Shown here piece by piece: positions 8,704 to 37,908 of a DNA stretch of 39,444 bases. Each line of letters opens with the position of its first letter. Within the stretch, counting starts at the first letter, position 1. The notes under the pieces were generated by a model. It did no database searches and was not told the DNA's origin. It was given only the letters and a program-made list of their open reading frames with translations. The position numbers and the translations under genes are program-made. Origin of the DNA: a virus; IMG/VR virus record IMGVR_UViG_3300028393_000149, positions 1 to 39,444 of that record, one strand, 5' to 3'.

Positions 8704-9870
8704 ATGTCAGAACTACTAAACGGACGTTGGGCAGAAACTAAGGAAGCACTTTTAGAAGGCCTAAACGGCACTAAAAAATCAGTAATGTCGGTTACACTAG
8801 AAAATACTCGCAAGTATTTGATGGAATCCCCAACAGCTGGTGCTACCTCTGCCGGTAACGTTGCCACACTAAATCGCGTAATCCTTCCAGTGATTCGCCG
8901 CGTTATGCCTACAGTCATTGCTAATGAACTAGTTGGCGTACAACCAATGACTGGTCCAGTTGGACAGATCCACACATTGCGTGTGCGTTATGCAGATTCT
9001 TCAACCGCAACAGCGGCTGGCGAAGAGGCATTAAGCCCATTCAAGATTGCTGAAGCTTATTCAGGCAATGACTCTGCTACAGCTAAAGGTGCTTCAACAG
9101 CAACTTTAGAAGGTCAAGCTGGTAAGCGCATGTCAATTCAAATCTTGAAGCAAACTGTTGAAGCAAAGACTCGTAAGTTATCAGCTCGCTGGACTTTCGA
9201 AGCCGCGCAAGATGCACAAGCTCAACAAGGTATTGACGTAGAAGCAGAAATTATGGCCGCTTTAGCACAAGAAATTACTGCTGAAATTGACCAAGAAGTA
9301 TTGGCTAGCTTGCTTTCATTAGCAGGTACAGCTACTCAGACTTATGACCAAGCCGCTGTATCTGGTACAGCTACATTCGTTGGTGACGAGCATGCCGCAT
9401 TGGCAGTTCAGATCAACCGTGTTGCTAACTTGATCGCTCAGCGTACACGTCGTGGTGCTGGTAACTATGCTGTTGTTAGCCCATTTGCATTGACAATTCT
9501 ACAATCTGCTACTACAAGCGCATTTGCTCGTACAACAGAAGGTACATTCGAAGCACCAACAAACACCAAGTATGTTGGTACATTGAACAATGCAATGAAA
9601 GTGTATGTAAACAGCTATGCTGGTGACTCACAAGATGTATTGATTGGCTACAAAGGTGCTTCAGAATCTGATGCTCCAGCGTTCTATTGCCCATACATTC
9701 CATTGATGAGTTCAGGCGTTGTACTAGATCCATCAACATTTGAACCAGTCGTATCATTCATGACACGTTATGGTTATGTTGAGTTGTCTAACACAGCATC
9801 CAGCTTAGGTAATGCGGCTGACTATTTGGGTCGTGTTGCTATCACTTCAGGTAACGTTAAATTCAGTTAA
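8704..9870 (+). CDS. 23: Major capsid protein gp23 (short form)
   Basis: The 388-residue protein has the T4 gp23 (HK97-fold) landmarks: GVQPMTGPVGQIHTLRVRY, the EAKTRKLSARWTFEAAQD spine-helix region, EITAEIDQEVL, RRGAGNYAVVSP, VYVNSYAGDSQDVLIGYKG, and a C-terminus with DPSTFEPVVSFMTRYGYVEL. The N-terminal part before TAGATSAG is helical and probably removed by gp21. A likely site is after Glu41 in KYLME, matching the LxE preference. T4 gp23 is 521 residues. Most of the missing length lies between TLRVRY and the EAKTRKL helix, where T4 carries its insertion domain. The strong AAGGAGAATTTAAATG start and the terminator downstream fit high expression as the last gene of the head block. Confidence 0.97.
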   Translation: MSELLNGRWAETKEALLEGLNGTKKSVMSVTLENTRKYLMESPTAGATSAGNVATLNRVILPVIRRVMPTVIANELVGVQPMTGPVGQIHTLRVRYADSSTATAAGEEALSPFKIAEAYSGNDSATAKGASTATLEGQAGKRMSIQILKQTVEAKTRKLSARWTFEAAQDAQAQQGIDVEAEIMAALAQEITAEIDQEVLASLLSLAGTATQTYDQAAVSGTATFVGDEHAALAVQINRVANLIAQRTRRGAGNYAVVSPFALTILQSATTSAFARTTEGTFEAPTNTKYVGTLNNAMKVYVNSYAGDSQDVLIGYKGASESDAPAFYCPYIPLMSSGVVLDPSTFEPVVSFMTRYGYVELSNTASSLGNAADYLGRVAITSGNVKFS

Positions 9871-18032: not shown

Positions 18033-21000
18033 ATGGCAGAGTTTAAGATAAACAGATTGCGTTATACATGGTTAGGTGCATGGGTAACCGCCACGGTTTA
18101 CGGAAAAGATTCCGTGGTACAATACAACGGTAAAACTTATGCATGTTTGACTGCGCATACAGCCAGTGCTAACTTCTATACCGATTTAAATTTTGTAGAT
18201 GGGTTAGGTGCATCCACGCCCTACTGGCAATTAATTGTCGATGGTAAAACATGGAAAAATACATGGGCAACCAATAGATTTTACAGTGCAGGCAATATTG
18301 TTGCATTCGGAGGCACACTGTATACTTGTGTAACTCCGCACACCAGCACCGCATTTGCGGCAAATTCTGCAAATTGGATTCAGTATTCACAATTCACAAG
18401 ATGGGATGCGGCTAATTCTAAAACCGACTGGGCTATTAATACTGTATATGGTATAAACGACGTAGTAAAATACGGCGGCATAGTATATGTATGTAATACA
18501 AATCACACTAGCTCTAGCGCAACAACTACAGGTTCCGATCCCGAAATTGCTTCAGGACTTGAAGCAGACCAGGCCAAATGGACTATTCTTAACAGCGGAA
18601 TAGATTACAAGCCAGCAGGATGGCAAAACGGTACACGTTATAAGTTAAATGACGTAGTAAAATATGGTGCTAATTTATGGAAATCCAATGCAGGTCATAC
18701 ATCTACAACAACATTTAATCCAGCTAGATGGACCATGTGGTTGCCTGGAGAATCATATAATCCTACCACTTGGTCGGCAAGCGGAGTATATCAAATAGGC
18801 GATATAGTAAACTATGGCGGCTATCAATATATCAATAACACCACTAATAATACCAATAATACACCTTCTACAGATGCAACTAATTGGACATTGTTTACTA
18901 AAAATTATAATTTTAGAAACGATTGGTTAACTGGAACTGCTTACAAAATTGGCGACACTGTTAGACGAAATGGTAGACTATACAATGCAACGTCTGACGT
19001 TAATGCAGGGGTTGATCCAAGTGCCGGACTAGTATACAAAACTTACACATTGTCTGGTAGCAGTGGAACTACATTAAAGGTAAATTCAACAACTAGCCTT
19101 GGTGTTGGAATGATCGTCATTGGAACAGGATTTTCACTAGGGCAATCTGTAATTTCTATTAGTGATTCAACTACAGTAATAATTGATAAAGGTCCAGACA
19201 GTACTCCTGCCAACGGCCAAACACTGTCATTTGTTGGAGTAAATACTGGCTGGGCATTAGTAGATACTGGAAATGCATATATTGGTCGTTGGACAACGTT
19301 TCCATCAAATTATACTATCGGCGATTTAGTAGTTTGGCAAAATGCCACTTACATGTGTATTCAAACTCATGCAAATACAAGTATGCTAGATTTCCAACGC
19401 CCTGACTTAGATACAACCAGGTCTTATTGGTCGTTGTTTATCAATCATGATAAAAATAATAGTCTAACAAGTCTAGGAGACATTGAAGCATTTAGTAGCG
19501 GACAGCCAACTGCTATTCCCGTTGGAACAGAATCCTATTCTTTAAGAGCTACAACAAATGCGTCTACTAAATTGACTACACCAACATGGTCACATTTGAA
19601 CGGCATTACAAAATTATTTTATGTAGCACCAACCGGTACAGACAGTTTAACAGGCGGTTGGGGGCTAACATGGGACAAACCTTTTAAATCTATTGCATTT
19701 GCGGCTAACTATGTTAACGGTGGCACACTGAATCCAAATGCTAAATTAAATTTGACCAACGCCAAATCTTGGATGATTACTGAAATGTACTATTGGATGC
19801 TGTATCAAAAGCAACAGTCGATATCTCCGTTCACTCCAAGTTCTGTATTTGACGCAACTAAAACTTTTAGAGATTCTCAATTTGTAATAGACTCATTAAT
19901 ATACGATTTAGCTCGCGGCGGCAACAGTCGAACAGTAAACACAGCGTTGGCATATTTCTCACAAGAATATGCAAATACTATTATTAATGCATCTACTGAA
20001 GCACAGTTGCCTTATTTTATTGCAGGACTCACCCAGTTGTTGGTATTAGTTGCCAACGGACTTTCTGGATCTGCTCCAGCACAAAGTTATCAAACACTAA
20101 TTGGAACAACTTCGTTCACCGGCAGTATCAGTGGAACTACTTTGACAGTTACCAGCGCACCTACAAAGGCAGGAATTTTAATAGGTCAAGTGATCTCCGG
20201 CGGCTCCATTCCAGCAGGAACTTACATTGTTGCTAACTTATCTGGCACTGGCACAGGATCCAGTAGTACATGGACCGTTAGCAATACAGTTACACAAGCC
20301 AGCATCACAATGACCAGCGTGCCTGTTACACAGCCAACAGCAGTTGGATCTGAGTTTAATGCATTGGCCGATGTTACAACGTTGTTTAATTTAATCATCA
20401 CAGCACTGAGCACAAAATCAACGGCCGCACTTCCAAGTCCTAATGCTGGATTAACGTCTACCATTCTTGTTAAAACAGGAACATACAGTGAAACACTTCC
20501 TATCATTATTGGTGAAAACGTTGCTATTTGCGGAGATGAACTGCGCGGCTCTGTAGTTCAACCAGCAACACGAATTATTATAACCATTACTGCGGCATCG
20601 GATACCAACAATACATTGATAACAGCATCCACAGCCATGTTGGCTGATAAAATGCCAATACAATTAGTAACAACATTTGGCGGATTAACTGCTGGTGTAA
20701 CTTATTATGTTATTGGAAGTAGCATTACATCAACACAGTTTAGTGTCAGTGCAACGTCAGGCGGCTCAGCATTATCATTGACTCTAGTTACCAGCGGTGC
20801 TGTCACTATGTACGCTGGAGATTGTTTAAAAGACATGTTCCGTATGCGTAACGGAAGTGGCTTAAGAAATTTCACACTTAACGGTTTGTTAGGAATACTT
20901 GGCCCAGTGAATGCATATTTGACACAACGTCCAACAGGCGGGGCATTCACAAGTTTAGATCCAGGAACTGGTCCTACTGATACTAGTGCGTGGATCTACA

Positions 21001-24000: not shown

Positions 24001-26504
24001 CATATGGTGACGGCTATTGGATTGCACTTCCTAGCAGTAATGCCACAGCGGCTGGATCTAGCGATGGGTCATCGTGGGTTAGTTTAGCATTGCCATCGTC
24101 AGCTAGTTGGACAGGTATTGCTTATGGTAATGGGTATTGGATTGGTATAGCAACTGGTAGTAGCAATATTATTCGATCTGTATCAAACGGACAAGGATGG
24201 AGAACCACGTCATTAGGATCTAGTTCAACTTGGATCAGTATTGCTTATGGTAACGGTTTATTTGTTGCAATTCCATCAGATAATACTGCCACAGTATACT
24301 CAACAAACTTTGGAGCAACGTGGTCAGCAGGAGCACTTCCTGGCAAAACATCATTTATAGCATCGGGTACTGCTCAACTCAGCACAGCACAGAAACAATT
24401 TGGTGCAACATCATTATACTTAGATGGTACTGCTAACGCTTATATCTCAACACCGTCAAACGCGGACTATGGTTACGGCACAGGAGATTTTACAGTTGAA
24501 TGTTGGGTCTATGTATCAGCTATCGGCGTAGCTCAAGCAATATTTGACCACCGTACTTCAGCAACAGAAGTATCGTTGCTAGCAGAAATTAGTGCAGTTG
24601 GCAATTTTAGATTATATGTGAACGGGTCATATGTAATTACAGGTAACAGTACAATAACTGCTAATACATGGACACACCTTGCAGTATCAAAAGCCGGCGG
24701 TACAACTAGATTGTTTGTAGGAGGCACTGTCCAGGGAACAACTTATACTGATAGTAACAACTATGCGGCCAAACCAGTTGTTATAGGTGCATACTATAAC
24801 GGCACAGCAAGATTTACTGGTTATATTGATGAATTTAGAGTTACAAAAGGCCTGTCGAGATATAGTGGAACATTCACACCAGCAGGCCCATTTACAAACG
24901 ATACCAATACTGTAGCACTATTACATTTTGACGGTGCAAATGCAAGCACAGTGATGTCAAATGCAATACCTGCCAGCACATATTCAAGTATGGCATACGG
25001 TTCTGGTAGATTTGTAGCTATTGCATCGGGAACAACAGCCGCATTTAGTACAGACGGTATAAGTTGGACTGCAAGCGTCTTGCCTGCATCCACCACATGG
25101 ACCAGCATCACATACGGTAATGGATTATTTGTGGCAGTTTCTAGTACTACAGCAATAACAGCTTATAGTGTAGACGGTGCTACATGGTACGGATCAAATT
25201 TAACTATTTCGGCTAACTATGTCAAGTACGGACAGGGAATATTCTTAGCACTAGCCAGCGGAAGTAACGTTGCATACACGAGTCCCGACGGCGCCAGTTG
25301 GAAAGTCAAATCTGTCAGCTCGAGTAATTATAGTACATTGGGTTTTGGATTCACTGCATCAAATGCTGGATTGTTTATAGCATTCCACGGCGCAACTGCT
25401 GGTAGTACAATTATTGCTGGTACAAAAACCAAAGGTAGGGCTAATGTGGTATCGGGTGTTATTACATCGGTCAGTGAATTTGAACCAGGCTCTGGTTATA
25501 ATCTAGGAGTAGCAAGTGTGACATTTACCGACCCTAATGTAACTACATTAGCTCAAGTAACAAGTCGCGTGGCCAACGGTGTACTATCAAGTCCAACATT
25601 TGTTAACAGAGGCTCGGGTTATAATACTAACTCAACAGCTATTACAATTTCTGGTAACGGTTATGCTGATGCATATCAAACAGGGCTGAGCATTATTTTA
25701 AATAATCTAAGTCGTTTACCGTTACCAGGCGATAACTTACAAATTACTGGAGTTAGTCAAAATTATAAAGTTACAAGTGCAACTTCAATATTTGGAACTG
25801 TTGCACCAAATATTGAAGCTAACGTTCAAATTGCTCCGGCGATGACAACTGCTAACAGTCCTGCGAATGGTGTAACAGTTAGTATTAGACAAAAATATAG
25901 TCAAGCACGTTTAACAGGCCACGACTTCTTAAACATCGGTTACGGAACACAAGCTCAATCAAATTATCCTGGAGTCCCAACAGATACTGCATTGCAACAA
26001 CAAAATCAAACAATTGAAACAAACTTTGGTCGCGTGTTCTTTACAAGTACTGACCAAGATGGAAACTTTAAAGTTGGTAACTTGTTTGGAGTACAACAGG
26101 CAACTGGTATTGTTACACTAAGCGCAAGTCAGTTTGGACTAACTGGTTTGAACACATTGAGTTTAGGAGGTATTGCTGTTGGTGGTTCTAGCGTAATTGT
26201 TAATCAGTTTAGTACTGACAGCACATTTGTTGCCAATAGCGATAACATAATTCCAACACAAAAAGCAATCAGGTCGTACTTAACTAGTCGTTTAAGTCAA
26301 GGCGGCGCAAACACGTTTACTGGACAGCTAACCGCAGGTACTGTTTTAGTCGGCGGCCCTGATAAAATTGGATCTACAATTCCTAACGGTGTTGCTGGAT
26401 CAGTAGTTGTAATGAAAAATCTTGTATATTTCAAGGCAATTTCAGGCTACAATGTAGTTGACGGTAATATGGCGGCACTAGACTTCTTCATGAGAAGAAG
26501 ATAA
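18033..26504 (+). CDS. Giant multidomain adhesin / tail-fibre protein (2823 aa)
   Basis: Domain order (residues approximate). 1-473: about seven W...Y..gD.V..gG..Y.c...H repeats resembling carbohydrate-binding modules, with a module B insert near 335-405. 529-690: start of a beta-helix (FYVAPTGTDSLTGGWGLTWD) with one FRDSQFVIDSLIYDLARGGN helical unit. 692-765: module A. 811-843: GTYSETLPIIIGENVAICGD. 847-930: module C. 933-1132: beta-helix (MFRMRNGSGLRNFTLNGLLG). 1133-1410: a CBM-like domain (NLLNYSNNF ... NGWYRLWFAS) with module D inside. 1563-1936: several module C copies. 1983-2430: propeller-like repeats (SIAYGNGLFVAI) interrupted by a LamG domain. 2610-2823: C-terminal domain shared with the next gene (RVFFTSTDQDGNFKVGNLFG). 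It has no cleavage or lytic active site that I can identify. It is presumably a glycan-binding host-recognition protein. Confidence 0.85.
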   Translation: MAEFKINRLRYTWLGAWVTATVYGKDSVVQYNGKTYACLTAHTASANFYTDLNFVDGLGASTPYWQLIVDGKTWKNTWATNRFYSAGNIVAFGGTLYTCVTPHTSTAFAANSANWIQYSQFTRWDAANSKTDWAINTVYGINDVVKYGGIVYVCNTNHTSSSATTTGSDPEIASGLEADQAKWTILNSGIDYKPAGWQNGTRYKLNDVVKYGANLWKSNAGHTSTTTFNPARWTMWLPGESYNPTTWSASGVYQIGDIVNYGGYQYINNTTNNTNNTPSTDATNWTLFTKNYNFRNDWLTGTAYKIGDTVRRNGRLYNATSDVNAGVDPSAGLVYKTYTLSGSSGTTLKVNSTTSLGVGMIVIGTGFSLGQSVISISDSTTVIIDKGPDSTPANGQTLSFVGVNTGWALVDTGNAYIGRWTTFPSNYTIGDLVVWQNATYMCIQTHANTSMLDFQRPDLDTTRSYWSLFINHDKNNSLTSLGDIEAFSSGQPTAIPVGTESYSLRATTNASTKLTTPTWSHLNGITKLFYVAPTGTDSLTGGWGLTWDKPFKSIAFAANYVNGGTLNPNAKLNLTNAKSWMITEMYYWMLYQKQQSISPFTPSSVFDATKTFRDSQFVIDSLIYDLARGGNSRTVNTALAYFSQEYANTIINASTEAQLPYFIAGLTQLLVLVANGLSGSAPAQSYQTLIGTTSFTGSISGTTLTVTSAPTKAGILIGQVISGGSIPAGTYIVANLSGTGTGSSSTWTVSNTVTQASITMTSVPVTQPTAVGSEFNALADVTTLFNLIITALSTKSTAALPSPNAGLTSTILVKTGTYSETLPIIIGENVAICGDELRGSVVQPATRIIITITAASDTNNTLITASTAMLADKMPIQLVTTFGGLTAGVTYYVIGSSITSTQFSVSATSGGSALSLTLVTSGAVTMYAGDCLKDMFRMRNGSGLRNFTLNGLLGILGPVNAYLTQRPTGGAFTSLDPGTGPTDTSAWIYKRSPYVQNVTNFGEGCTGLKIDGTLHNGGNKSIVCNDYTQILSNGIGIWVTGPSSVCEAVSVFSYYNYAGYFAEAGGRLRATNGNSSYGVYGVIAEGYDTTETPISGIVFNQSSQVQATVQSSFGSSAQLVRTSYSNAGAAYNTTTTNLLNYSNNFLGAPWSQTNILLSKNTVAPTGYVEAWALTSSGTSTSINQSVTVPPAGTIYSALSGIGGSGSNATFDVRVTGTAYVVTTNFGGAGYIVGDQIIISGSLLGGVNITNDCTLTVFSLSGNAILTVTPAGTVPTGSAKRYTTSVYVKQGTASTVALGAVWAGNTLVNNGISFNFASGVITPYNDGIMPSPTQYGALALPNGWYRLWFASYDSTGLNYSLSASIFPVGLSPVVGQYNYFYGSQLENSSTSGSPSFYLEVAGTTRYTAYANYNIVGAGTGAIAVGDEIRSSAVFETRVTTDSIGVTGGAGYLTASNNAQGGNAQYAQLAQSDTNTAQNYIGMRLFINSGTASGQYGYIASYDASTKIAYILKESFDPLQVISSSAADNTMVLGVSYDTTTLYTGQPVQFIPTYYTTTVATIGISSVSVTAAIGGTTNTLTVTSTAQLQDNMAITFSGSLVFGNILAGFTYYISKVVNSTTIRITNSLYGADWQLTTASGNMTMNFPSYTNYLQAVTSNMVVNYPIQFTGTSVGGLVVGTTYYINDIVDGSNFTISGSLVTISPTASNSVTTNTYTVASTSTLSPLTPILFSGGAGAVFGGVAEGTKYYISKINSPTEFSIASSLLTVTVSATSGTGNNLITCSSTTGFVSNNPIQFVGLTFGGLNSEQTYYISAISVDGITFTVSNLPGQGAVNLTAGSGICYGKTCPSPFLLSTVGSGTMTGTSTASKTRLTYGYSTINGTFSTQLFSNVVLGTTYYINTIDSLTRKITVASSLANVGVTAFTLLTKTGSMNLAAVGWDHVNPGTPISPTINSSSVYFIEPRTTYQEPAFLQTTMAAPISLGSGTWSSIAYGDGYWIALPSSNATAAGSSDGSSWVSLALPSSASWTGIAYGNGYWIGIATGSSNIIRSVSNGQGWRTTSLGSSSTWISIAYGNGLFVAIPSDNTATVYSTNFGATWSAGALPGKTSFIASGTAQLSTAQKQFGATSLYLDGTANAYISTPSNADYGYGTGDFTVECWVYVSAIGVAQAIFDHRTSATEVSLLAEISAVGNFRLYVNGSYVITGNSTITANTWTHLAVSKAGGTTRLFVGGTVQGTTYTDSNNYAAKPVVIGAYYNGTARFTGYIDEFRVTKGLSRYSGTFTPAGPFTNDTNTVALLHFDGANASTVMSNAIPASTYSSMAYGSGRFVAIASGTTAAFSTDGISWTASVLPASTTWTSITYGNGLFVAVSSTTAITAYSVDGATWYGSNLTISANYVKYGQGIFLALASGSNVAYTSPDGASWKVKSVSSSNYSTLGFGFTASNAGLFIAFHGATAGSTIIAGTKTKGRANVVSGVITSVSEFEPGSGYNLGVASVTFTDPNVTTLAQVTSRVANGVLSSPTFVNRGSGYNTNSTAITISGNGYADAYQTGLSIILNNLSRLPLPGDNLQITGVSQNYKVTSATSIFGTVAPNIEANVQIAPAMTTANSPANGVTVSIRQKYSQARLTGHDFLNIGYGTQAQSNYPGVPTDTALQQQNQTIETNFGRVFFTSTDQDGNFKVGNLFGVQQATGIVTLSASQFGLTGLNTLSLGGIAVGGSSVIVNQFSTDSTFVANSDNIIPTQKAIRSYLTSRLSQGGANTFTGQLTAGTVLVGGPDKIGSTIPNGVAGSVVVMKNLVYFKAISGYNVVDGNMAALDFFMRRR
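18060..19450 (+). repeat. Tandem carbohydrate-binding-like repeats at the N-terminus of the 2823-aa adhesin
   Basis: About seven degenerate units of 45-60 residues share W-x(3,8)-Y-x-(I/V/L)-(G/N)-D-x-V-x-x-(Y/G)-G-x-x-Y-x-C/N-x(3-5)-H and end in a Trp (for example VYGINDVVKYGGIVYVCNTN). They resemble small aromatic-rich chitin/cellulose-binding modules (CBM5/12 style). They are repeats at protein level; the DNA has drifted. Confidence 0.7.
23980..25330 (+). repeat. Propeller-like repeats split by a LamG domain
   Basis: Units of about 40 residues with W-x-S/G-I-A-Y-G-x-G-x-(F/W)-(V/I)-A-(I/V) and a following S-x-(D/N)-G-x-x-W (BNR/sialidase-like pattern) occur at about 23985-24350 and resume at about 24985-25330. 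The stretch 24350-24980 between them is a LamG (concanavalin-like) domain: FGATSLYLDGTANAYIS, DFTVECWVYV, THLAVSKAGGTTRLFVGG and GYIDEFRVTKGLSRY. The LamG stretch ends in VALLHFDGAN, which is normally the start of such a domain. Confidence 0.72.
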
Positions 26505-26559: not shown

Positions 26560-29500
26560 ATGGCAGAATTTAAACTAGGTAGAATTAAATTTGTATACCA
26601 AGGTGCTTGGGCAACTACAACAGCATACGCAGTTGATGACGTTGTTACGGTAGGCGGCAAAACTTATATTTGTGTGGTTAGTCACACATCGTCCGCATTA
26701 TTTGGAACAGACTTAAACTTCAACCCAACAAAATGGAACGTAGTGGCCGATGGAGCCAAATGGTTAGGCGCTTGGGCAAACAATACCTATTATAATCTCG
26801 GTGATCAAGTGCAATACGGTGGTATTGTGTATCAAGCCAATACTGCACATACCAGTATTGCTACCAATGCTCCGATTACTGTGACCGGTGCTAGCGGCAC
26901 AAGTTCCACAGTAACAATAACATTTACAGCACAAGCAGTTGCACCATTTTTAATTGGATCTACCGTTACTGTAGCAGGTATTGCTACATCTGCCAGCGGT
27001 TATAATCAAGTAGGTGCAACTGTAACAGCATGTACAACAACAAGCGTTAGCTATTCAAACGCTACTACTGCAACATATACAAGCGGCGGTACAATTGTTG
27101 GAACTTTACAAACAGCATTAGAAGCAGATCAATCTAAGTGGGATGCATTTGCATCTAATTTCTACTGGGCTGGCGCATGGGTTATTAATACACGATACAA
27201 AGTAAGAGATTTGGTAACATACGGCGGCATTACTTATGTTTGTAATACAGCCCATGTTAGTGCAAATACTTCTGCATTGGGTTTAGAAAACGATATTTCT
27301 AAATGGGATTCATTTAATTCAGGCATTACATATCTAAGCGCATGGAGTGGCAGTAGTTATCGCTATAAATTAAATGACGTTGTAAAATACGGTGCAGATC
27401 TTTGGATTTGTACAACACAACATACTAGTTCAGCTACTTTTGATAATACCAAATGGAGTATTTTTGTCAATGGTTTCCAGTTTGAAAGCAGTTGGGTAGG
27501 TGGCACAACTTATCAAGTTGGCGATATTGTTACATATGGCGGATATGCTTATATTTGTAAACAAAACCACGCTACAACACAAACTCCGACAGCAGTAAGT
27601 TCTGCATACTGGGATGTTTATACTACTGGTTTTAGTTTCCAGGGTGATTGGTCCAGCGCAGGAAATTATTATGTAGGTAGTGTTGTGCGCTTAGGTGGTT
27701 ATACCTATGTTGCTACAGCAGATAATAATACAAAAACACCAACAATCAATAGTACGGTTGTTACAACAAATTATATCAACGTAGACTCTGTAACAGGATT
27801 AGTTGATAGTTTACCAATTTCTGTTGCTACAACAGTTGGCGGTTTATCAAATACTAGCACATACTATGTGATTGGGGCAACTGTTGCTTCAACAACAGCT
27901 ACTTTAAATAATGCAAGTATTAGCAACGGTGCAAGTGGTGCAGGTACAACATTAGCTATTGGATCAGTGGGTGCTGGAACAGTAGTAGTTGGTATGTATA
28001 TTACCGGTTCAGGAGTTACTGCTGGAACATATATTGTTTCAGGAAGTGGATTATCATGGGTTGTTAGTGCAAGTCAATATGTTGCTGGCCCGATAACACT
28101 CACAGGAACTTTAAACCAATTTAAAGTTAGTGCAACACCAGGATCAGCAACCGCAGTAACATTATCAGCAACATCTGGACAATCCGTTGTAGCAACTACT
28201 AACCCAACACCTCCATTTGCAACATACTGGTCAAGATTAAATCCTGGTATTCGTTATAATTCTACTTCGGGAACATACACCGCGGTATCTGCTTCAAACG
28301 TAGTAAGTTCTGGTTCAAGTGCAACATTTAATATTACACGTAATAATTCTGTTTATGCGGTAACAGTTAACGGCGGTGGAACTGGCTATGCGGCCACAGA
28401 TACATTAAAGATTGTAGGTACAAGTGTTGGTGGTATTAGTCCAGCAAACGACATCAACATTACAGTCAACACAGTTAGTGGCGGAGTTATCCAAGCGGCA
28501 GGCATTACTACAACAGGTAATGCTGTTACTTGGACTACCGGTACAGCATACGTCTTAGGTGACGCAGTATATTTTGGTGCAAATAGTTATATTTGCGTAA
28601 ATGCTCATATTGGAGCTACTGGTAATCGTCCAGACAACGATTCAACAGGTGCATATTGGAACTTATTATCAGCAGGAACCAACAGTGCTGTTTTAACTAC
28701 GCAAGGCGATACATATTATTATGGCTCAACTGGTGCGCAACGTTTACCAATTGGAACAGACGGACAGATTTTACGTGTTACCAACGGATTACCTGCATGG
28801 AGTTACTATGGTATATTAAACAATATCGTGTATGTTGCTACAAGCGGTACTGATTCTGTAGGTGCTGGCCAAGGTCTAACTCTTGATAAGCCATGGAAGA
28901 CAGTGCGTTATGCGGCCAAACAAATTGAAGACGGCTATTTAAACGTCAATGCAAGGGACTTGCTAGCTAAAAATAAACAATTTATTCTTAAAGAAGTTTC
29001 TAATTATGTAAGTTATACATATCAAGTTAGTGTTACCGGAACTGCCAGTAATGCATTCTTAACCACAAGCACATCTGGTTTAATAGTTGGCATGCCAATT
29101 ACATTTACTGCCCAGACAGGCAGTTTAACCATTGCCGGCGCATCATTCGTATCTAGTACTGTATACTATGTTCAAGCTATCACCACAAACACAAGTTTCA
29201 CAGTGGCTACTAGCTATGGCGGTAATGCAGTTATCGCGGCTGGCACGGGTACTGCCACAGCAAAATATTATACAAGCCTAGGATCTGAAATTGAAAGAGA
29301 TGCAGGCTATGTATTAGAAGGCGTAATATTTGATTTGAGCCACGGCGGGACATCTAAATCGGTAACAAATGCAAGAGCATATTTAAATGCCAGTGGGTCT
29401 GCTTATATCAATACCGCAACTCAATCACAAGCCGGGGTTTTTGTTGGCGCAGATAGCTACATGTCAACTTTATTTGGTAACATATTGGCTAACACAGCTC

Positions 29501-32500
29501 CAACAAATAACTACCAATCACTTAATAGTGTGGCTTCTCCTGCTACTCAGATTTTTGATACAACAATACCTGCAGAATCGGGTTCGACTGCCACAGCACA
29601 AAGTTTAATTGCTATAGTTACTAGTGCAATAACTGCCGGGGTATCTACAAATATTCCCGTTGCAACACAACCACAATCTACCATTAGTGTTAAAACAGGA
29701 ACTTATAACGAAGTCTTACCAATTGTAATTCCTTCATACACAGCCGTAGTCGGAGACGAACTACGCAGTACAGTGATCCAACCACAAACAGCAATTGCTA
29801 ACTTAGCCAACGATAAACCAAAATCAGTTGCGGCACTTGGCCGAATTAAAGCATTAGTAAGTAGTTTAGTTGCTAATACTGCACTTACTGGTAGTGCTGG
29901 AAATACTCAAGTACTTGCCACAACTGGCGCAAGTAGCTCAAGCGGCACGAGTACTATTACATTTGCACTACAAACAACAATTCCGTTTGTAGTGGGACAA
30001 AAAATTACAGTTAGTAGTGTAACTCCAAGCGGATTTAATGGATCTAAAACTGTAACTGCTTGCACATTAACTAGCGTTTCATTTGCAGGATCTACAGCAG
30101 GCCCGCAAACAGTTGCAGGTATTGTATCAAGCCAAGATACTAGTATTACCGCAGGCGATACAGGTAGTTCAGCCGCAGTGGCAAGTATTGTAGCTAATAC
30201 TGATGCTATGCGCGATACTTTACAAAACGGTGTAGCTCAGATTGTAGCATACAGTTTTACAACACCGACAGGATACAATACTGCCAGTTTCTTAGCAGGC
30301 TACGGTGACGGAAAAACACAAATTATTCAAAATTATCAGTTTATTAAAGATGAAGTATCGGCTTTCTTAAACACAAACTATAATGCAGTTTGGACAGCAT
30401 TAGGTGGTACCGGACAAGCACTATGTCAGCGCGACGTTGGCTACATGCTTGATGCATTACAGCATGACATGACTTATGGTGGTAATACACAGAGTCAAAT
30501 TGCTGGCAGTACTTACTATTCTAATTATGCATTGACTATTGCGGCAACAGAAAAGATAGCAACAGTGGCGGCTTACAAGCGTTTACAGCAAGTTGTACAA
30601 CAAATTGTTCTTAAAACATCGGTAGCAGTTAGCGCAGGAAATGCCACATCACAAGTTGTAAGCGGTACTGCTGGTTCAGCAAGTGCGGCAACATTTGCGG
30701 CACAGCGTATTGGAGATGTAGTGTATTGGATTAATAATACTACAGCTAATACAACCACATTTAGTACAACTGGCTCTATTGCAACAACAAACGGCGGAAC
30801 ATTAACTGTAACCGCAGTTGGTTCAGGAACTGTTGTACCAGGTGCATTAGTAACCGGTACAGGAGTTAGCTCAAGTACATATATTACCGCACAAAATGGC
30901 GGAACTACTACTGTTGCATCAGGAACATATTCAAGCGGTGGCGCACCAACAAGTCAAACTTTTGTATTAGGATCTGCTACAAGCGTTGCGGCCGGGCAGT
31001 TAGTAGTTGGTACAGGAGTTCCAGCTGGTTCTTATGTTATTTCATCATACACAAGTGGTACGACGATTACTCTAGTTGACTACTGGGGAGCACCTGCGTA
31101 TTTGACACAACAAGCCGCTGGCACTTACAATTTCTACGTACCCGGCGCTACTGGAACTTATCTAGTAAACGTAAGTCAAACAGTAAGTTCAACTACAATC
31201 AACGGAGCAAATCAAATTACTCCTGTGACAAGCGGAGCTGTTGCATTGGCTACATCGGCACTACAGACTTCTTATAATGCTGTTGTAGCAAGAAAATCTG
31301 AAATACAAGCTGATACAGTAAGCTGGGTTAACAAATTTTATCAATCATTATATTTTAATAGTGCAACATGTAGTCGCGATGCTGGACTTATTGTCGATGC
31401 ATTAGCATATGACATGGTATTAGGTTCAAACTTTAACAGTATTATCGCGGCACGTTCATATTTTAGAGCAACTACAAGTGCTCAAGTGGTTTACAATAAC
31501 CAACTAGCCGCAGAAATTGGATCAATCGGGTTTATTGCGGCCAAAGTTAAAATGATTGCAGGTGCTGGTAGTATTGTACAAATTTCTACATTGATTGACG
31601 ATGCAACAGCATTTATCAATGGTGGATCAGTTCCACATTTGTTTACATGGCCAGATTATACTGGCATGAGTGCAAACCGTGCGGCCGCGGCAAAAGTTAT
31701 TTGGAGAAACAAGGCGTTTATCCAAGCTGAAATTGCAAGTTATCTAGGTACAAACTACGCAAGTGTTTGGAACTCAATTGTACAAGCAACTTGTACACGC
31801 GACATCGGTTACATTATTGATGCTATTCGTTACGATATGACGTACGGCGGCAACTCAATGTCTAAACGTGCAGGTATTGCATACTATTCACGTTTAACAA
31901 ACCAATTTGAAATTGCGGCAACAGAAAAAACAGCAACACTAGCGGCTTATACATTGTTAGGAACTTTAGTTTCAGCAATAGCACAAAACGGTGCATACTC
32001 CGCATTACAAGGTACTGTGACTCGTGTGAGTGCAAGTGCTTACGGTACTGGTACTGAAGGTACTGCGGCGTCTGCTTTAGTTACTGTTGTTTATAACTAT
32101 GTAAACAGCGGATTAACTACTGGCGCTCCACAAATTACAATCACAACGGTTGCAGGTACAACTACATTTACTAGCGGTACACACGGGTTAGCAATAGGCG
32201 ACGAAGTTATTCCACAGTCAACTGCTAACGGTTTAGTCGCAGGAACAATCTATTATGTTGCGTCAGTTCCATTAACAACAACATTTACTTTGGCCGCAAC
32301 ATGGGGCGGAGCGGCTATAACAACATTTACCAACGGTACAGGTTTAAGTATTGTTGCAGAAACAACTAATAACGCAACTACCACATGGGTAGCTAGCGGA
32401 CTTACTACAATCAATACTGCATTGTCTTTGGCAAAATCTACATTACAAACCAATGTGATTAGTTACATTACTACTAACTTCCCATCATTGTCTTATAACT

Positions 32501-35500
32501 CAACAACATGTTCACGTGACGTTGGATATCTAATAGATGCTATTGGTTATGATTTCATGGTTGGAAGTAACTACAGAACAGTCAGAGGTGCAATGAGTTA
32601 TTACCAAGCACAATCTGCATTGGTAATTGCTTCCCAGAAATCAGCAACAATTGCTTCGTTCCAATATCTACAAACACAATTGCAAATCACGTTGGCAAGT
32701 AATGCTACAGCATTGGCAAGCATGAATGCCAACATGACAACATTCTTAGCAATCTTAAATAACGGCATTGGAGAGACTCCTGAAGTTCACGGATCTTTAA
32801 CATATAATAATGCTCAAGCTCTTCAACAAGGCGCTGAAATACTACGTGCTAATAAGAAATTCCTAGCATACGAAGCAAGTGCTTTTATTAATGCAAGTTA
32901 TGGGGGTGCTGTTACTGGTACATCTAGTACTGGCAACACTATTACATTTACATCCAATCACAATCTTGCAGTCGGTGACCCGATACAATTTACTTCAGCA
33001 ACTGTAAAAACTACTTCGGCTACAACAGTAACAACTGGTGGGGTACTAACCGTAACTTCTGGCGGAACTAGCGGTATGGTAACTGGAATGCCAGTTTCGC
33101 TAACTGGTACAGCATTTGGCGGTTTATCAAACGTTTCTGTATATTACATTATCAACGTTAACGCTGGCTCAAATCAGATTACATTAAGCAGTTCATATGG
33201 AGGCAGTGCAATATCTATTGCAGGCGGTACAGGAACTATGACAGTGACAGCAGGCGGAATGATTGGTGGACTTGCGCTTAATACTGCATACTATGTATTA
33301 ACAGTTCCTAGTACAACAACAATTACAGTTTCAGCCACACAAACTGGATCAAGCGCAATAACATTAACTAATGGAAACGGTACCTTAACAATCAACTACT
33401 ATTATATTCTTTCAAGTTGTTTGCGCGATACAACTGCATTTATTGATGCAATGATATATGATTTACAATATACTGGTAACTATAAAACTTTAAGAGCGGC
33501 AGAACTATACTTAAATGCTGTACGTGGTTCAACTACTTCAGACATGTTCCGTGTACGTAACGGAACGGGCTTACGTAATTGCACATTGAATGGATTGACT
33601 GGAATTTTAACAGTTCCAAACAGCTACGGTACACGTCGCCCGACAGCCGGTGCGTTCGTTGCACTAGATCCTGGATTTGGTCCTAACGATAGTAACGTAT
33701 GGGTATCAAGTCGTTCACACTATTCACAAAACGTTACCATGTTTGGTTCTGCATGTACAGGTGCTAAGATTGATGCGGCACTACATAGTGGCGGCAACAA
33801 GTCGATGGTTAAAAATGACTTTACAACAATTCTAAGCGATGGTATTGGTGTATGGTGTACTGGTTCCGGTTCACTAACAGAATTAGTTTCAGTGTTTAAC
33901 TACTATGGATATGCAGGGTACTTAGCAGAACTAGGCGGACGTATTCGTGCTACTAACGGCAACAGCTCATATGGTACATATGGTGTTATAGCTGAAGGTG
34001 TCGATACATATGAAACACCAATCTATGCAAACTTAAACAATCGTTCAGCACAAGCACTAGTCGGTTCTGTAATTACAGATGCTGTTAACCAAATATACAG
34101 ATTTGAATATAGTAATGCTGGAAGTAACTATACAAATACAACACATAATGTCAGCTCATCTGGCTACGGAATTACAGTTGTTGCAGATGAATTCCGTGAT
34201 GCGGCAGTATTTGAAACACGCATTATTGACTTAAATGATACTAACGGATTTGGAGGCAAAGGATATATTACCGCGGCTAATACAGCACAGTTAAGTACTA
34301 TTGGTAATATTGTTATAGCGGCTACAGATACGGCACTATCAACAGCCTACGCCGGAATGCGTATACAAGTTACAGGCGGATCTGGTGTTGGTCAGTATGC
34401 TAACATATTAGCGTATGATAATGGTACTAAGGCCGCAAGAGTAATCAAGGATAGTTTTGTTACACTAACTATTACTGCTACTACAAATGGTACACCAAGT
34501 ACGGTTACCGTGGCTAGTACAGTAACATTATTTGCCACAATGCCATTCTACACAGCAAGCACTATTGGCGGACTAACTGTTGGCACATTGTACTATGTAC
34601 AAGCTATTTCATCAGCGACTACATTTACAGTATCATTGACTAGCGGCGGCGCGGCCTTAACAACAGCAATCACAACAACTACAAACACCGCGGCTTCACT
34701 AACTGGATCCAGCATTAGCAGTACAACATTGACAGTTGGTACACTAGCATCTGGTACAATTTATGTTGGTATGACTTTAACTGGCACTGGAGTTTCAGCA
34801 GGTACATATATTACTGCTAATATTTCCGGTAGCGGCACGGGCTCAACATGGACTGTTAATAATACACAAACCGTAAGTACTACAACTATTACTGGACAAA
34901 TTGGTATGCCATTGTACGCGGCAGGATGGGATCATGTAATTCCAGGTACTACAATCAACAATGCACCAGATTTAACTAGTACATATATTATTGAGCCGCG
35001 TATTAATTATACTGTTCCAGGATATACTGCTACAGCTAGAACATTAATTGGAACTGCAACATGGACTAGTATTGCCCACGGCGCAGGTCGATATGTAGCC
35101 ATAGCAAGTGCCGGTACAACAAGTAACTATTCAACTGATGGTAAAACTTTCCTAGCGGCGGGCGCATTACCATCGAGCTCAACATGGACTGACATTGTTT
35201 ATTCAGGCGGTCAGGGATCAGTTGCCACAGCGGTTCTAGGCGGTTTTGGCGGTCAAGGTGCAATACTAACCGCAGTTTTAGGAACTGGGGCGGTTGCTGG
35301 ACAAGTTGTCAGCGTAACTATTAATAACGGCGGTACTGGTTATACTACACCGCCGACTATTCTGTTTACTCCTGTAAGTGGCGGTTCGGGTGCTACTGGT
35401 ATCGCTACTGTATTAAACGGAGCAATTGCTACAATAACTATTACAATTCCTGGTTCAGGCTACGGTAACGGTGTAACGGTAACTGCTGTAACTGACAGAG

Positions 35501-37908
35501 TAACCGGCATCACAATGAACGCATGGGGGAAAAACTATTTTAGTACTCCTGTAGTGACATTTTCAACACCAAATAATATTTCAGCAACTGTATGGAGCTC
35601 AGGCGGATCAGCAACTTTAAGCAGTTACTATTCGTTTGTAAACGGTAGTACAACTAACTTCTATCTATGTACAGTTGCCGGAACATTCACATCTAGCGGC
35701 CCAATACACACAAGCGGTTCTACAACTAACGGTACTGCCACACTGCAATATTACGGTACGCTAGCAAGCGGTACTGCAACTTTAACTAACGCAGGAGTAA
35801 GCAGTATTACTATTGTTAACTCAGGCATAAACTACGGAAGTGTCCCAACTATTACAATTACTGATAGTGCTTCACGATTTGTGGCAATAGCTACAGGTTC
35901 AAATGCAATCGCATATAACTCACCAACAGCTATTACAAGTGCATGGAGCGGGTCAGGTGTAAGTAGTGGTAAAACTGATTTATTATCAATTGCATACGGT
36001 GCAGGATTGTTCATCGCCGTAGGCGGAACAACAAATACTGCTAGCGTAGTAAGTACTACAGACCCGGTATCAAGTGGTAACTGGATCGATCGTTCAGCGG
36101 CTACAAACGTAGCCACAAGTACAGGTTATTATACTGGTATTGCTTATGGTAATAACGTATTCCTTGCAATTAACGGTAACGGCGGCAATAAGACAATCAC
36201 ATGTGCCGGTAATCCAACAACATGGGTAATTGGCGGCAACTTACCAGCAAGTACAAACTGGACTAGTGTTGCGTTTGGTAATAACCGATTTGTAGCATTA
36301 GCAGTTAACGGTTCTGTTGCTTATACTGTAAACAACGGTACTACATGGACTGCATGTCCAAACTCAACAGGCACAACTACTAGCATATTAAGTTCAAGTT
36401 ATACCTGGAGCAAAGTATCATACGGTCAAGGTTTGTTTATGGCTATAGCAAAAGGCACAACTATTTGTGCTACTAGCCCAGACGGTCTTAACTGGACTGT
36501 TCAAGCAATGCCAAGTTCAAGTAACTGGCAAGGTTTGACATTTGGCAATGTATTAAACAATCCATTATGGGTAGCTGTAAGTAACACTAGTGGTACAGTA
36601 GCGGCTAGTATTCGTACTGGAGCACAAACATTAGGTCGTGTAAAAGTTGCATCAAATGCGGTAACTGAAGTACGTTTAGTCGAACCAGGAAGCGGTTATC
36701 CAAAAGGAGCCGTGACTGCTACAACAGTGACTACTAATATAATTACAACAGACGATACCACCAATTTAGTAGACAGCCAACCAGTTGAATTCACTGGTGC
36801 AACAACAGGCGGACTAGCATTAAACACAGTTTACTATGTAATTGGTTCAACCATTGTTACTAACACCAGCTTTAAAGTTAGTGCAACCGCAGGCTCGGCT
36901 ACAGCAGTTACATTGTCAACTACAACAGGTTTGTCAGGAACATATCGCGCAGGCCCGATAGTTACTCAAACAGATCCAAACAGAACAGTAACAGCGGCCC
37001 TGCGTGTGCGTTTAGGCGATGGCGCATTGGGTAATCCAAGTATCGCGGCTCGCGGAACAAACAACGCTACTGCTACTGCTACTACTTCTGGTGACGGCTA
37101 TAGCGATTTGTATCAAGCAAGTAGTTTTGTTTCTGTAAGTAATTTATACAGCGTACCAACTGCTGGAGCAAACGTGCAATTTGCAAGCATTACTGGAACT
37201 AGTCAGTGGTACAAACTAGTAAGTGTAACCATAACAGGCGGTATTGTTGGCAACTATCAAGCAACATTCCAAATTAATCCAGCATTGAGCGTATTACTTG
37301 CACCAGCACACAGTGATTTAATCACAACACGATTAAAATACAGTCAAGTCCGTTTAACTGGACATGACTTCTTGTATATCGGTACTGGAAACTATACACG
37401 TACTAACTATCCAAACGTTGATCCAACATTGGCAATTACTGCTAATCAACAATTGTTTAGTGGCGGAGGTCGTGTGTTCTTTACAAGTACTGACCAAGAC
37501 GGTAACTTCAACGTTGGTAACTTGTTTGGAGTCGCACAGGCAACAGGTACTGCTACGTTGAACGCTAGTGCATTTAACCTAGCTGGTTTACAGAGCTTGC
37601 AACTTGGCGCTGTAACATTAGGTGTCGGTAGTGCTATTATTACACAATTCTCAACAGACCCATACTTTACAGCTAATAGTGATAGTGTTGTTCCGACACA
37701 AAAAGCTATTAAAGCGTATATTACGGCCCAAATTGGTGGCGGATCTAGCACTTTGAACGTAAATACACTAACAGCAGGCCAATTAAAACTTTCTAATAAT
37801 CAAATAGAAAATACAACTGGCGGGCAAATTAACGTAATATCAAAGATGAATTTCACAGGTGGAATTGACGGAGCTCCAGTTGCTCTAGCATTCTTTGGTC
37901 AAAGATAA
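26560..37908 (+). CDS. Giant multidomain adhesin / tail-fibre protein (3782 aa)
   Basis: Paralogue of the 2823-aa protein with the same framework. Domain order (residues approximate). 1-700: W...Y..gD.V..gG..Y repeats with inserts F (about 104-185), C with A inside (about 400-545) and D. 708-740: LTTQGDTYYYGSTGAQRLPI. 758-820: start of the beta-helix (YVATSGTDSVGAGQGLTLDK). 800-2325: six CxRDxGYxxDAxxYDxxxGGN helical units with further inserts. 2328-2560: beta-helix (MFRVRNGTGLRNCTLNGLTG). 2650-2790: modules C and A. 2830-3360: propeller-like repeats with an inserted Gly-rich region (about 2886-3103). 3390-3468: module C. 3588-3782: conserved C-terminus (RVFFTSTDQDGNFNVGNLFG, SVVPTQKAIKAYITAQIG). 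It has its own late box. It is one of the longest phage ORFs I would expect to meet; the role is presumed host-surface binding. Confidence 0.85.
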   Translation: MAEFKLGRIKFVYQGAWATTTAYAVDDVVTVGGKTYICVVSHTSSALFGTDLNFNPTKWNVVADGAKWLGAWANNTYYNLGDQVQYGGIVYQANTAHTSIATNAPITVTGASGTSSTVTITFTAQAVAPFLIGSTVTVAGIATSASGYNQVGATVTACTTTSVSYSNATTATYTSGGTIVGTLQTALEADQSKWDAFASNFYWAGAWVINTRYKVRDLVTYGGITYVCNTAHVSANTSALGLENDISKWDSFNSGITYLSAWSGSSYRYKLNDVVKYGADLWICTTQHTSSATFDNTKWSIFVNGFQFESSWVGGTTYQVGDIVTYGGYAYICKQNHATTQTPTAVSSAYWDVYTTGFSFQGDWSSAGNYYVGSVVRLGGYTYVATADNNTKTPTINSTVVTTNYINVDSVTGLVDSLPISVATTVGGLSNTSTYYVIGATVASTTATLNNASISNGASGAGTTLAIGSVGAGTVVVGMYITGSGVTAGTYIVSGSGLSWVVSASQYVAGPITLTGTLNQFKVSATPGSATAVTLSATSGQSVVATTNPTPPFATYWSRLNPGIRYNSTSGTYTAVSASNVVSSGSSATFNITRNNSVYAVTVNGGGTGYAATDTLKIVGTSVGGISPANDINITVNTVSGGVIQAAGITTTGNAVTWTTGTAYVLGDAVYFGANSYICVNAHIGATGNRPDNDSTGAYWNLLSAGTNSAVLTTQGDTYYYGSTGAQRLPIGTDGQILRVTNGLPAWSYYGILNNIVYVATSGTDSVGAGQGLTLDKPWKTVRYAAKQIEDGYLNVNARDLLAKNKQFILKEVSNYVSYTYQVSVTGTASNAFLTTSTSGLIVGMPITFTAQTGSLTIAGASFVSSTVYYVQAITTNTSFTVATSYGGNAVIAAGTGTATAKYYTSLGSEIERDAGYVLEGVIFDLSHGGTSKSVTNARAYLNASGSAYINTATQSQAGVFVGADSYMSTLFGNILANTAPTNNYQSLNSVASPATQIFDTTIPAESGSTATAQSLIAIVTSAITAGVSTNIPVATQPQSTISVKTGTYNEVLPIVIPSYTAVVGDELRSTVIQPQTAIANLANDKPKSVAALGRIKALVSSLVANTALTGSAGNTQVLATTGASSSSGTSTITFALQTTIPFVVGQKITVSSVTPSGFNGSKTVTACTLTSVSFAGSTAGPQTVAGIVSSQDTSITAGDTGSSAAVASIVANTDAMRDTLQNGVAQIVAYSFTTPTGYNTASFLAGYGDGKTQIIQNYQFIKDEVSAFLNTNYNAVWTALGGTGQALCQRDVGYMLDALQHDMTYGGNTQSQIAGSTYYSNYALTIAATEKIATVAAYKRLQQVVQQIVLKTSVAVSAGNATSQVVSGTAGSASAATFAAQRIGDVVYWINNTTANTTTFSTTGSIATTNGGTLTVTAVGSGTVVPGALVTGTGVSSSTYITAQNGGTTTVASGTYSSGGAPTSQTFVLGSATSVAAGQLVVGTGVPAGSYVISSYTSGTTITLVDYWGAPAYLTQQAAGTYNFYVPGATGTYLVNVSQTVSSTTINGANQITPVTSGAVALATSALQTSYNAVVARKSEIQADTVSWVNKFYQSLYFNSATCSRDAGLIVDALAYDMVLGSNFNSIIAARSYFRATTSAQVVYNNQLAAEIGSIGFIAAKVKMIAGAGSIVQISTLIDDATAFINGGSVPHLFTWPDYTGMSANRAAAAKVIWRNKAFIQAEIASYLGTNYASVWNSIVQATCTRDIGYIIDAIRYDMTYGGNSMSKRAGIAYYSRLTNQFEIAATEKTATLAAYTLLGTLVSAIAQNGAYSALQGTVTRVSASAYGTGTEGTAASALVTVVYNYVNSGLTTGAPQITITTVAGTTTFTSGTHGLAIGDEVIPQSTANGLVAGTIYYVASVPLTTTFTLAATWGGAAITTFTNGTGLSIVAETTNNATTTWVASGLTTINTALSLAKSTLQTNVISYITTNFPSLSYNSTTCSRDVGYLIDAIGYDFMVGSNYRTVRGAMSYYQAQSALVIASQKSATIASFQYLQTQLQITLASNATALASMNANMTTFLAILNNGIGETPEVHGSLTYNNAQALQQGAEILRANKKFLAYEASAFINASYGGAVTGTSSTGNTITFTSNHNLAVGDPIQFTSATVKTTSATTVTTGGVLTVTSGGTSGMVTGMPVSLTGTAFGGLSNVSVYYIINVNAGSNQITLSSSYGGSAISIAGGTGTMTVTAGGMIGGLALNTAYYVLTVPSTTTITVSATQTGSSAITLTNGNGTLTINYYYILSSCLRDTTAFIDAMIYDLQYTGNYKTLRAAELYLNAVRGSTTSDMFRVRNGTGLRNCTLNGLTGILTVPNSYGTRRPTAGAFVALDPGFGPNDSNVWVSSRSHYSQNVTMFGSACTGAKIDAALHSGGNKSMVKNDFTTILSDGIGVWCTGSGSLTELVSVFNYYGYAGYLAELGGRIRATNGNSSYGTYGVIAEGVDTYETPIYANLNNRSAQALVGSVITDAVNQIYRFEYSNAGSNYTNTTHNVSSSGYGITVVADEFRDAAVFETRIIDLNDTNGFGGKGYITAANTAQLSTIGNIVIAATDTALSTAYAGMRIQVTGGSGVGQYANILAYDNGTKAARVIKDSFVTLTITATTNGTPSTVTVASTVTLFATMPFYTASTIGGLTVGTLYYVQAISSATTFTVSLTSGGAALTTAITTTTNTAASLTGSSISSTTLTVGTLASGTIYVGMTLTGTGVSAGTYITANISGSGTGSTWTVNNTQTVSTTTITGQIGMPLYAAGWDHVIPGTTINNAPDLTSTYIIEPRINYTVPGYTATARTLIGTATWTSIAHGAGRYVAIASAGTTSNYSTDGKTFLAAGALPSSSTWTDIVYSGGQGSVATAVLGGFGGQGAILTAVLGTGAVAGQVVSVTINNGGTGYTTPPTILFTPVSGGSGATGIATVLNGAIATITITIPGSGYGNGVTVTAVTDRVTGITMNAWGKNYFSTPVVTFSTPNNISATVWSSGGSATLSSYYSFVNGSTTNFYLCTVAGTFTSSGPIHTSGSTTNGTATLQYYGTLASGTATLTNAGVSSITIVNSGINYGSVPTITITDSASRFVAIATGSNAIAYNSPTAITSAWSGSGVSSGKTDLLSIAYGAGLFIAVGGTTNTASVVSTTDPVSSGNWIDRSAATNVATSTGYYTGIAYGNNVFLAINGNGGNKTITCAGNPTTWVIGGNLPASTNWTSVAFGNNRFVALAVNGSVAYTVNNGTTWTACPNSTGTTTSILSSSYTWSKVSYGQGLFMAIAKGTTICATSPDGLNWTVQAMPSSSNWQGLTFGNVLNNPLWVAVSNTSGTVAASIRTGAQTLGRVKVASNAVTEVRLVEPGSGYPKGAVTATTVTTNIITTDDTTNLVDSQPVEFTGATTGGLALNTVYYVIGSTIVTNTSFKVSATAGSATAVTLSTTTGLSGTYRAGPIVTQTDPNRTVTAALRVRLGDGALGNPSIAARGTNNATATATTSGDGYSDLYQASSFVSVSNLYSVPTAGANVQFASITGTSQWYKLVSVTITGGIVGNYQATFQINPALSVLLAPAHSDLITTRLKYSQVRLTGHDFLYIGTGNYTRTNYPNVDPTLAITANQQLFSGGGRVFFTSTDQDGNFNVGNLFGVAQATGTATLNASAFNLAGLQSLQLGAVTLGVGSAIITQFSTDPYFTANSDSVVPTQKAIKAYITAQIGGGSSTLNVNTLTAGQLKLSNNQIENTTGGQINVISKMNFTGGIDGAPVALAFFGQR
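26590..28670 (+). repeat. Carbohydrate-binding-like repeats with inserted modules, 3782-aa adhesin
   Basis: The repeat units (for example YNLGDQVQYGGIVYQ, YKVRDLVTYGGITYVCNTAH, YQVGDIVTYGGYAYICKQNH) follow the same pattern as in the 2823-aa protein. Two units are interrupted. Module F (about 26876-27115) splits one unit between AHTSIAT and TALEADQSKWDAF. A compound insert (about 27745-28195) and module D (about 28300-28500) lie within the last units. Confidence 0.7.
28954..33530 (+). repeat. Six helical CxRDxGYxxDAxxYD repeats in the 3782-aa adhesin
   Basis: The consensus is C/E-x-R-D-x-(G)-x-(I/V)-x-(D)-A-(I/L)-x-Y/F-D-(M/L)-x-x-G-(G/S)-N, preceded by a FIxxExxxxL helix and followed by YY and a Lys/Gln-rich helix. 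Core motifs lie at about 29290, 30425, 31370, 31793, 32510 and 33420. Units are roughly 90-110 residues before insertions. The 2823-aa paralogue has a single copy, at about 19868. Copies one and six are interrupted by module C between the two helices. Confidence 0.72.
35050..36560 (+). repeat. Propeller-like repeats with a large loop insertion, 3782-aa adhesin
   Basis: BNR-like units such as WTSIAHGAGRYVAIASAG, LLSIAYGAGLFIAVGG, TGIAYGNNVFLAINGN, WTSVAFGNNRFVALAV and WSKVSYGQGLFMAIAKG are visible. One unit is cut between WTDIVYSGG (about 35205) and SRFVAIATGS (about 35874). The inserted 220 residues contain several GxGY...PTITxT units. Confidence 0.7.

Follow-up and report, generated by a model that had tools for sequence, protein, structure and literature searches.

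Modules nested in one another within a CBM_5_12-type domain of a giant tail-fibre-like phage protein

How one protein module comes to lie inside another is the question raised by a tail-fibre-like gene in the window, the whole stretch of 39,444 bases analysed here, which belongs to a virus record carrying a T4-like structural cluster. The initial annotation had proposed that a 74-residue module A was inserted in frame into an existing module C, and had compared the interrupted C with two uninterrupted copies elsewhere in the window. The encoded protein matched phrog_9851 (tail fiber protein) at 1.1e-141, and CBM_5_12 was detected in it by profile search at 1.9e-29 in six stretches. The gene, the parts of the nest and the two uninterrupted copies of C were located as follows.

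26560-37908, + strand: tail-fibre-like protein of 3782 aa in one open frame, with a CBM_5_12 array at its N-terminus and the match to phrog_9851
27628-27741, + strand: host CBM_5_12-type domain, first part (GFSFQGDW...TADNNTKTP), by alignment to intact CBMs from cyanophages and other relatives
27742-27894, + strand: module C, first part (TINSTVV...YYVIGATVAST), from the HMM, the splice test and an AF2 pLDDT of 83-95 over most of it
27895-28116, + strand: inserted module A, 74 residues (446-519), from the HMM (60 bits), the gap in homologues and AF2 of A alone
28117-28206, + strand: module C, second part (QFKVSATPG...ATTNP), from DNA identity to an intact copy and an AF2 pLDDT of 83-93 at model residues 161-200
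28207-28257, + strand: host CBM_5_12-type domain, end (TPPFATYWSRLNPGIRY), unbroken with the first part in empty relatives, with a lower pLDDT (63 to 46)
36709-36948, + strand: module C, uninterrupted, in the 3782-aa gene (HMM, 65.6 bits)
20580-20813, + strand: module C, uninterrupted, in the 2823-aa neighbour gene (HMM, 63.3 bits)

Residues 446-519 made up exactly 74 codons (TATLNN...TGTLN), and the module A profile was matched from end to end. Module C (27742-28206) flanked A, with YYVIGATVAST upstream and QFKVSATPG downstream. Removal of A restored a C of normal length, as had been claimed: with A spliced out, C scored 57.5 bits over the full model, compared with 25.4 bits for the best fragment. 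Further, when C-only homologues were aligned with nested ones by MAFFT, their gap fell on the same 74 residues. The spliced host C shared 56% identity over 75 aa with the C at 36709-36948; its identity was 58% with the L004 copy and 49% with the L078 copy, and its second part had 81% DNA identity over 54 bp to the intact copy at 36871-36924.

The nesting of A in C stood, but one level had been missed, as C itself lies inside a CBM_5_12-type domain. In the empty relative L106 (NQTPPNTSYWARLNSG; GFSFQGDWNSGTSYKVGHVVRLGGYTYVATVDSLNQTPPNTSYWARLNSG) the host CBM was uninterrupted. The interrupted CBM copy alone scored only 7.3 bits against PF02839, while the whole protein passed the curated cut-off strongly. 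A interrupts C and C interrupts the CBM_5_12-type domain, all in frame, an arrangement written here as CBM[C[A]]. Pfam and NCBIfam gave no name for modules A, B or C. Compared with each other by hhalign, A and C were in register over 52 columns with an E of 0.01 (single comparison) and a probability of 4%, which hints at homology but was not significant; in the fold search, both resembled 9n71 and Uba1.

The same site was then compared among relatives. The sites were gathered by IMG/VR scans with alignments of both flanks, together with phage records, giving 111 distinct orthologous sites. Seventy were empty, 20 held C alone, seven held C with B, five held C[A], and six held A and C; the singletons were one A alone (directly in the CBM), one C-C and one A-B-C. 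In the seven sites with B, this module occupied another loop of C, the first-strand loop, and in the six sites with A and C, A stood before C or within its start. The five C[A] sites were those of the window and of four IMG/VR sequences, which are close relatives. An empty site in related phages, which the initial annotation had suggested looking for, was present at the orthologous place in L078, L027, L039, L038, L032 and L117, the site of L078 being C-only. L004-L006, which had at first seemed empty, were dropped from this count because they are orthologous to the second C of the gene, at 36.8 kb. Among relatives, the same CBM site survives in empty, one-level and two-level form; the nested arrangement was not common to all distant homologues, and the predicted structure, described below, was not that of one continuous domain.

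A flank tree was built by a quick search from the gene's own flanks, with seven marine relatives as the root. C[A] formed one clade of five sequences with an SH-aLRT of 99. The seven marine relatives were all empty, and so were the nearest outgroups (L106, L112 and L114). The tree needed 18 state changes, against 38.8 in shuffles. Accordingly, the insertion is a derived state, and filling or emptying of the site has occurred repeatedly. The proposed in-frame insertion of A into a C that is otherwise normal was thus supported by the empty orthologous sites, by the single five-sequence clade and by the models, which fit it.

Two-step nested domain insertion is very likely how CBM[C[A]] arose in this giant protein, a fibre or adhesin of a T4-like phage. 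The modules would be drawn from a pool of promiscuous modules shared by the structural proteins of phages, and would enter by illegitimate or short-homology recombination. An insertion would survive where it replaces a beta-turn and leaves the host fold intact, and a module might be retained by changing the exposed surface or the reach of the host-binding fibre.

It is also conceivable, though somewhat unlikely, that C[A] was formed elsewhere and entered the CBM loop as a ready-made nested unit. Two observations would suit such an origin: the outgroups nearest to the clade are empty and not C-only, and the host C is at least as near to the C at 36.8 kb in the same gene as to the Cs of the same site. 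However, the loci retrieved contained no further C[A] of this type, and the sister group has C alone and C with B at the same CBM site. Moreover, tblastn with the nest gave no match among 50,697 phage records, and neither A nor C had a match in the phage collection, results that show little because the modules are short and of low complexity. No donor of A was identified. The host C was slightly closer to the C at 36.8 kb (56%) than to the C of the C-only site of L078 (49%), and by these identities C may have been acquired separately here.

An ancestral nest from which the C-only relatives deleted A is quite improbable. Losses would be compatible with parsimony, as the flank tree requires 18 state changes in all, but C[A] was confined to five of the 111 sites and to one clade, and the marine outgroups were without C and A.

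The structure of the nest was predicted by AF2. The model of residues 357-599 (15 sequences) had a mean pLDDT of 65 and a pTM of 0.59. Host C was modelled with high confidence before and after the insert, its long strands lying at P0001 435-449 and 512-524. In this model of the whole CBM[C[A]] the insert itself fell below pLDDT 50, and we therefore infer where it sits on C; A had only five rows in the alignment, because adding A fragments had set A wrongly against C. Modelled alone (32 sequences), A reached a pLDDT of 92.7 and a pTM of 0.81, with end strands at P0001 446-455 and 508-518. These end strands overlap in sequence the host strands flanking the insertion, which would place A at the tip of a C hairpin that it may continue. 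In the fold prediction, which had been proposed for the nested unit, A is predicted to be a small all-beta domain that folds on its own, and C and the CBM are each predicted to close over their insert as single folds, while the insert was poorly modelled within the whole.

Solved chitin-binding CBMs aligned across model residues 5-213, spanning the insert. For 2d49, 50/53 residues were superposed at 2.0 A with a Z of 5.0, and other CBM-bearing chains had Z of 5-6.5. Small beta barrels were matched as well: the Uba1 FCCH region aligned with model residues 34-195 (75 residues, 2.3 A, Z 6.3) and EF-Tu had a Z of 6.0, so that module C may be a barrel like E1 FCCH or EF-Tu domain 2. These values are moderate, a Z under 8 may mean only a common arrangement, and the fold names are leads only. 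The same reading applies to A, which resembled the Uba1 FCCH region, phage tail proteins and, at Z 7.4, 8eci chain 1 of Arthrobacter phage Bridgette. In BFVD, many structural proteins of phages had A-like folds, with matches reaching E 5e-5.

These models also bear on the view that no insertion took place and that truncated tandem C modules flank A by chance. These proteins do hold tandem C, and such arrays give false positives of C in C. However, the two C parts are complementary without overlap, their join matches uninterrupted homologues without a gap, and AF2 and the solved folds treat both parts as one barrel, which makes a chance flanking very improbable.

The 8-bp repeat at the edges of A had been likened to a short homology or a target duplication, and this part of the initial annotation was not upheld. 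The repeat, ACTTTAAA, lies at 27901-27908 and 28108-28115, near both edges of A, and occurs in eight copies in the window against 3.9 expected. Equal or better edge repeats were obtained at 2.3%, 4.8% and 11.9% of in-gene positions within 15, 20 and 30 nt per edge, respectively. The edge repeat was absent in all four nested relatives; the nearest (L011) reads acactaaac/acattgaat there. The window and L011 differed at 49% of third positions in A and at 32-51% in four flanking segments. A is as diverged at third positions as its flanks, indicating that it was in place before the window and L011 split. The amino-acid difference in A was 12%, compared with 49% at third positions, which indicates purifying selection. 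Further, the nested A diverged faster between two subclades (58% identity) than the host C (81%), as is expected of an exposed tip. At L132:4475-4831, A is found directly inside the same CBM loop, which is empty in the close relatives L128, L140 and L174; compared with these, the joins of this comparatively recent insertion show no target duplication. An arrival of A in the manner of a mobile element with an 8-bp target duplication, to which the repeat at both edges would point, is therefore hardly credible, and the repeat was rejected as an insertion scar, because it is missing in the nested relatives, is a frequent 8-mer, would implausibly have survived the third-position divergence and has no counterpart at L132.

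Further copies of the modules were found in the 3782-aa gene.

34693-34896, + strand: module A, non-nested (HMM, 67 bits)
26875-27102, + strand: module B within the second CBM, another nest (HMM, 72 bits), with CBM halves read on both sides
32908-33396, + strand: candidate C-in-C, with the inner complete copy at 33010-33252 (66.2 bits spliced, 33.3 bits for the best fragment)

In the candidate C-in-C, the inner copy lies before the GGL loop; many relatives are alike, and tandem arrays can mimic such a nest. In the 2823-aa gene, an A-like stretch at 19035-19238 was seen by eye to interrupt a CBM. The splice test in relatives suggests B in C (six cases), A in A (seven) and C in A (one, L174), and a second method gave 26 split-hit candidates for nesting. 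The case in L174 (ORF from 3632, residues 1376-1458) is a reciprocal nest with C inside A, the spliced A scoring 57.1 bits against 35.6 for the best fragment. In the sliding null of the splice test, C-in-C was frequent but inflated by tandem arrays, and such cases were thus retained as candidates only. The case for C[A] and C[B] comes instead from comparing orthologous sites. A broader reading, which we consider unlikely, would be that the fibre modules of this lineage offer their loops as standing acceptor sites. Small beta modules of a shared barrel-like fold would be inserted time and again into one another (A in C, B in C, A in A, C in A and possibly C in C) and into CBMs. The fibre would then grow and diversify recursively, perhaps by recombination that the phage favours and not by rare accidents.

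Domain insertions are reported in 20% of multidomain proteins, with nested A1-B1-C-B2-A2 cases (PMC13114784). Cellular nested insertions (PMC13114784; PMC2225427) are like the present case in that a domain lies in a domain within a third and the hosts still fold. However, viruses and phages are unmentioned in the survey text of PMC13114784, whereas here each level is a small beta module in a phage fibre. In addition, empty and intermediate states survive here at the same site in relatives. In the domain mosaicism described for phage tail spikes and fibres (Smug et al. 2023, PMC10684548), modules are likewise exchanged between receptor-binding and tail proteins. The main text of that study does not contain the words 'nested' or 'inserted', while the exchange seen here is insertion inside the loops of other modules. 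The hypervariable host-recognition cluster of pelagimyophages and cyanomyophages (PMC7029224) is similar in being T4-like, with a variable fibre region beside conserved structural genes; whole genes vary there, whereas single loops inside a gene vary here. In the open literature, no description of nested or inserted domains in phage fibres or tails was found.

Promiscuous Ig-like domains are reportedly found on phage structural proteins, as Fraser et al. are said to have described in 2006. The likeness to these is that of a small beta module on many unrelated virion proteins, probably surface-exposed. In contrast, A resembled small beta-barrel chains and not Ig folds in the fold search, and A lies both between domains and in loops. 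Insertion and nesting of domains are generally known; what is added here is the survival of intermediates at one site. The origin of a domain in a domain is usually inferred from one end state, whereas stepwise states are visible here at one site. The alternative modules and loops at this site make stepwise nested growth testable by phylogeny, structure and binding assays. This also suggests a route for the diversification of giant fibres that would be missed by comparisons at the level of genes or of domains aligned end to end.

With regard to the genomic setting, the marine counterpart of the 3782-aa gene in Prochlorococcus phage P-SSM2 adjoins the T4-like proximal tail fibre and hoc genes. 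The capsid protein of the window (8704-9870) was nearest to those of jumbo T4-like phages (350-470 kb), with identities of 71.5% to Sinorhizobium phage Phosso, 69.8% to Vibrio phage 2.275.O and 67% to Serratia phage BF and Erwinia phages. Judging from this capsid similarity, the 39-kb record probably represents part of a far larger genome. Downstream of the nest, a further module (SGSSATFNITRNNSVYAVTVN...) was present between two CBMs at 28300-28509; it was common in IMG/VR relatives and absent in cyanophage orthologues. In the 2823-aa protein, a Laminin_G_3 / concanavalin A-like domain was found (P0002 residues 2133-2271; 24429-24845; Pfam 1.6e-20).
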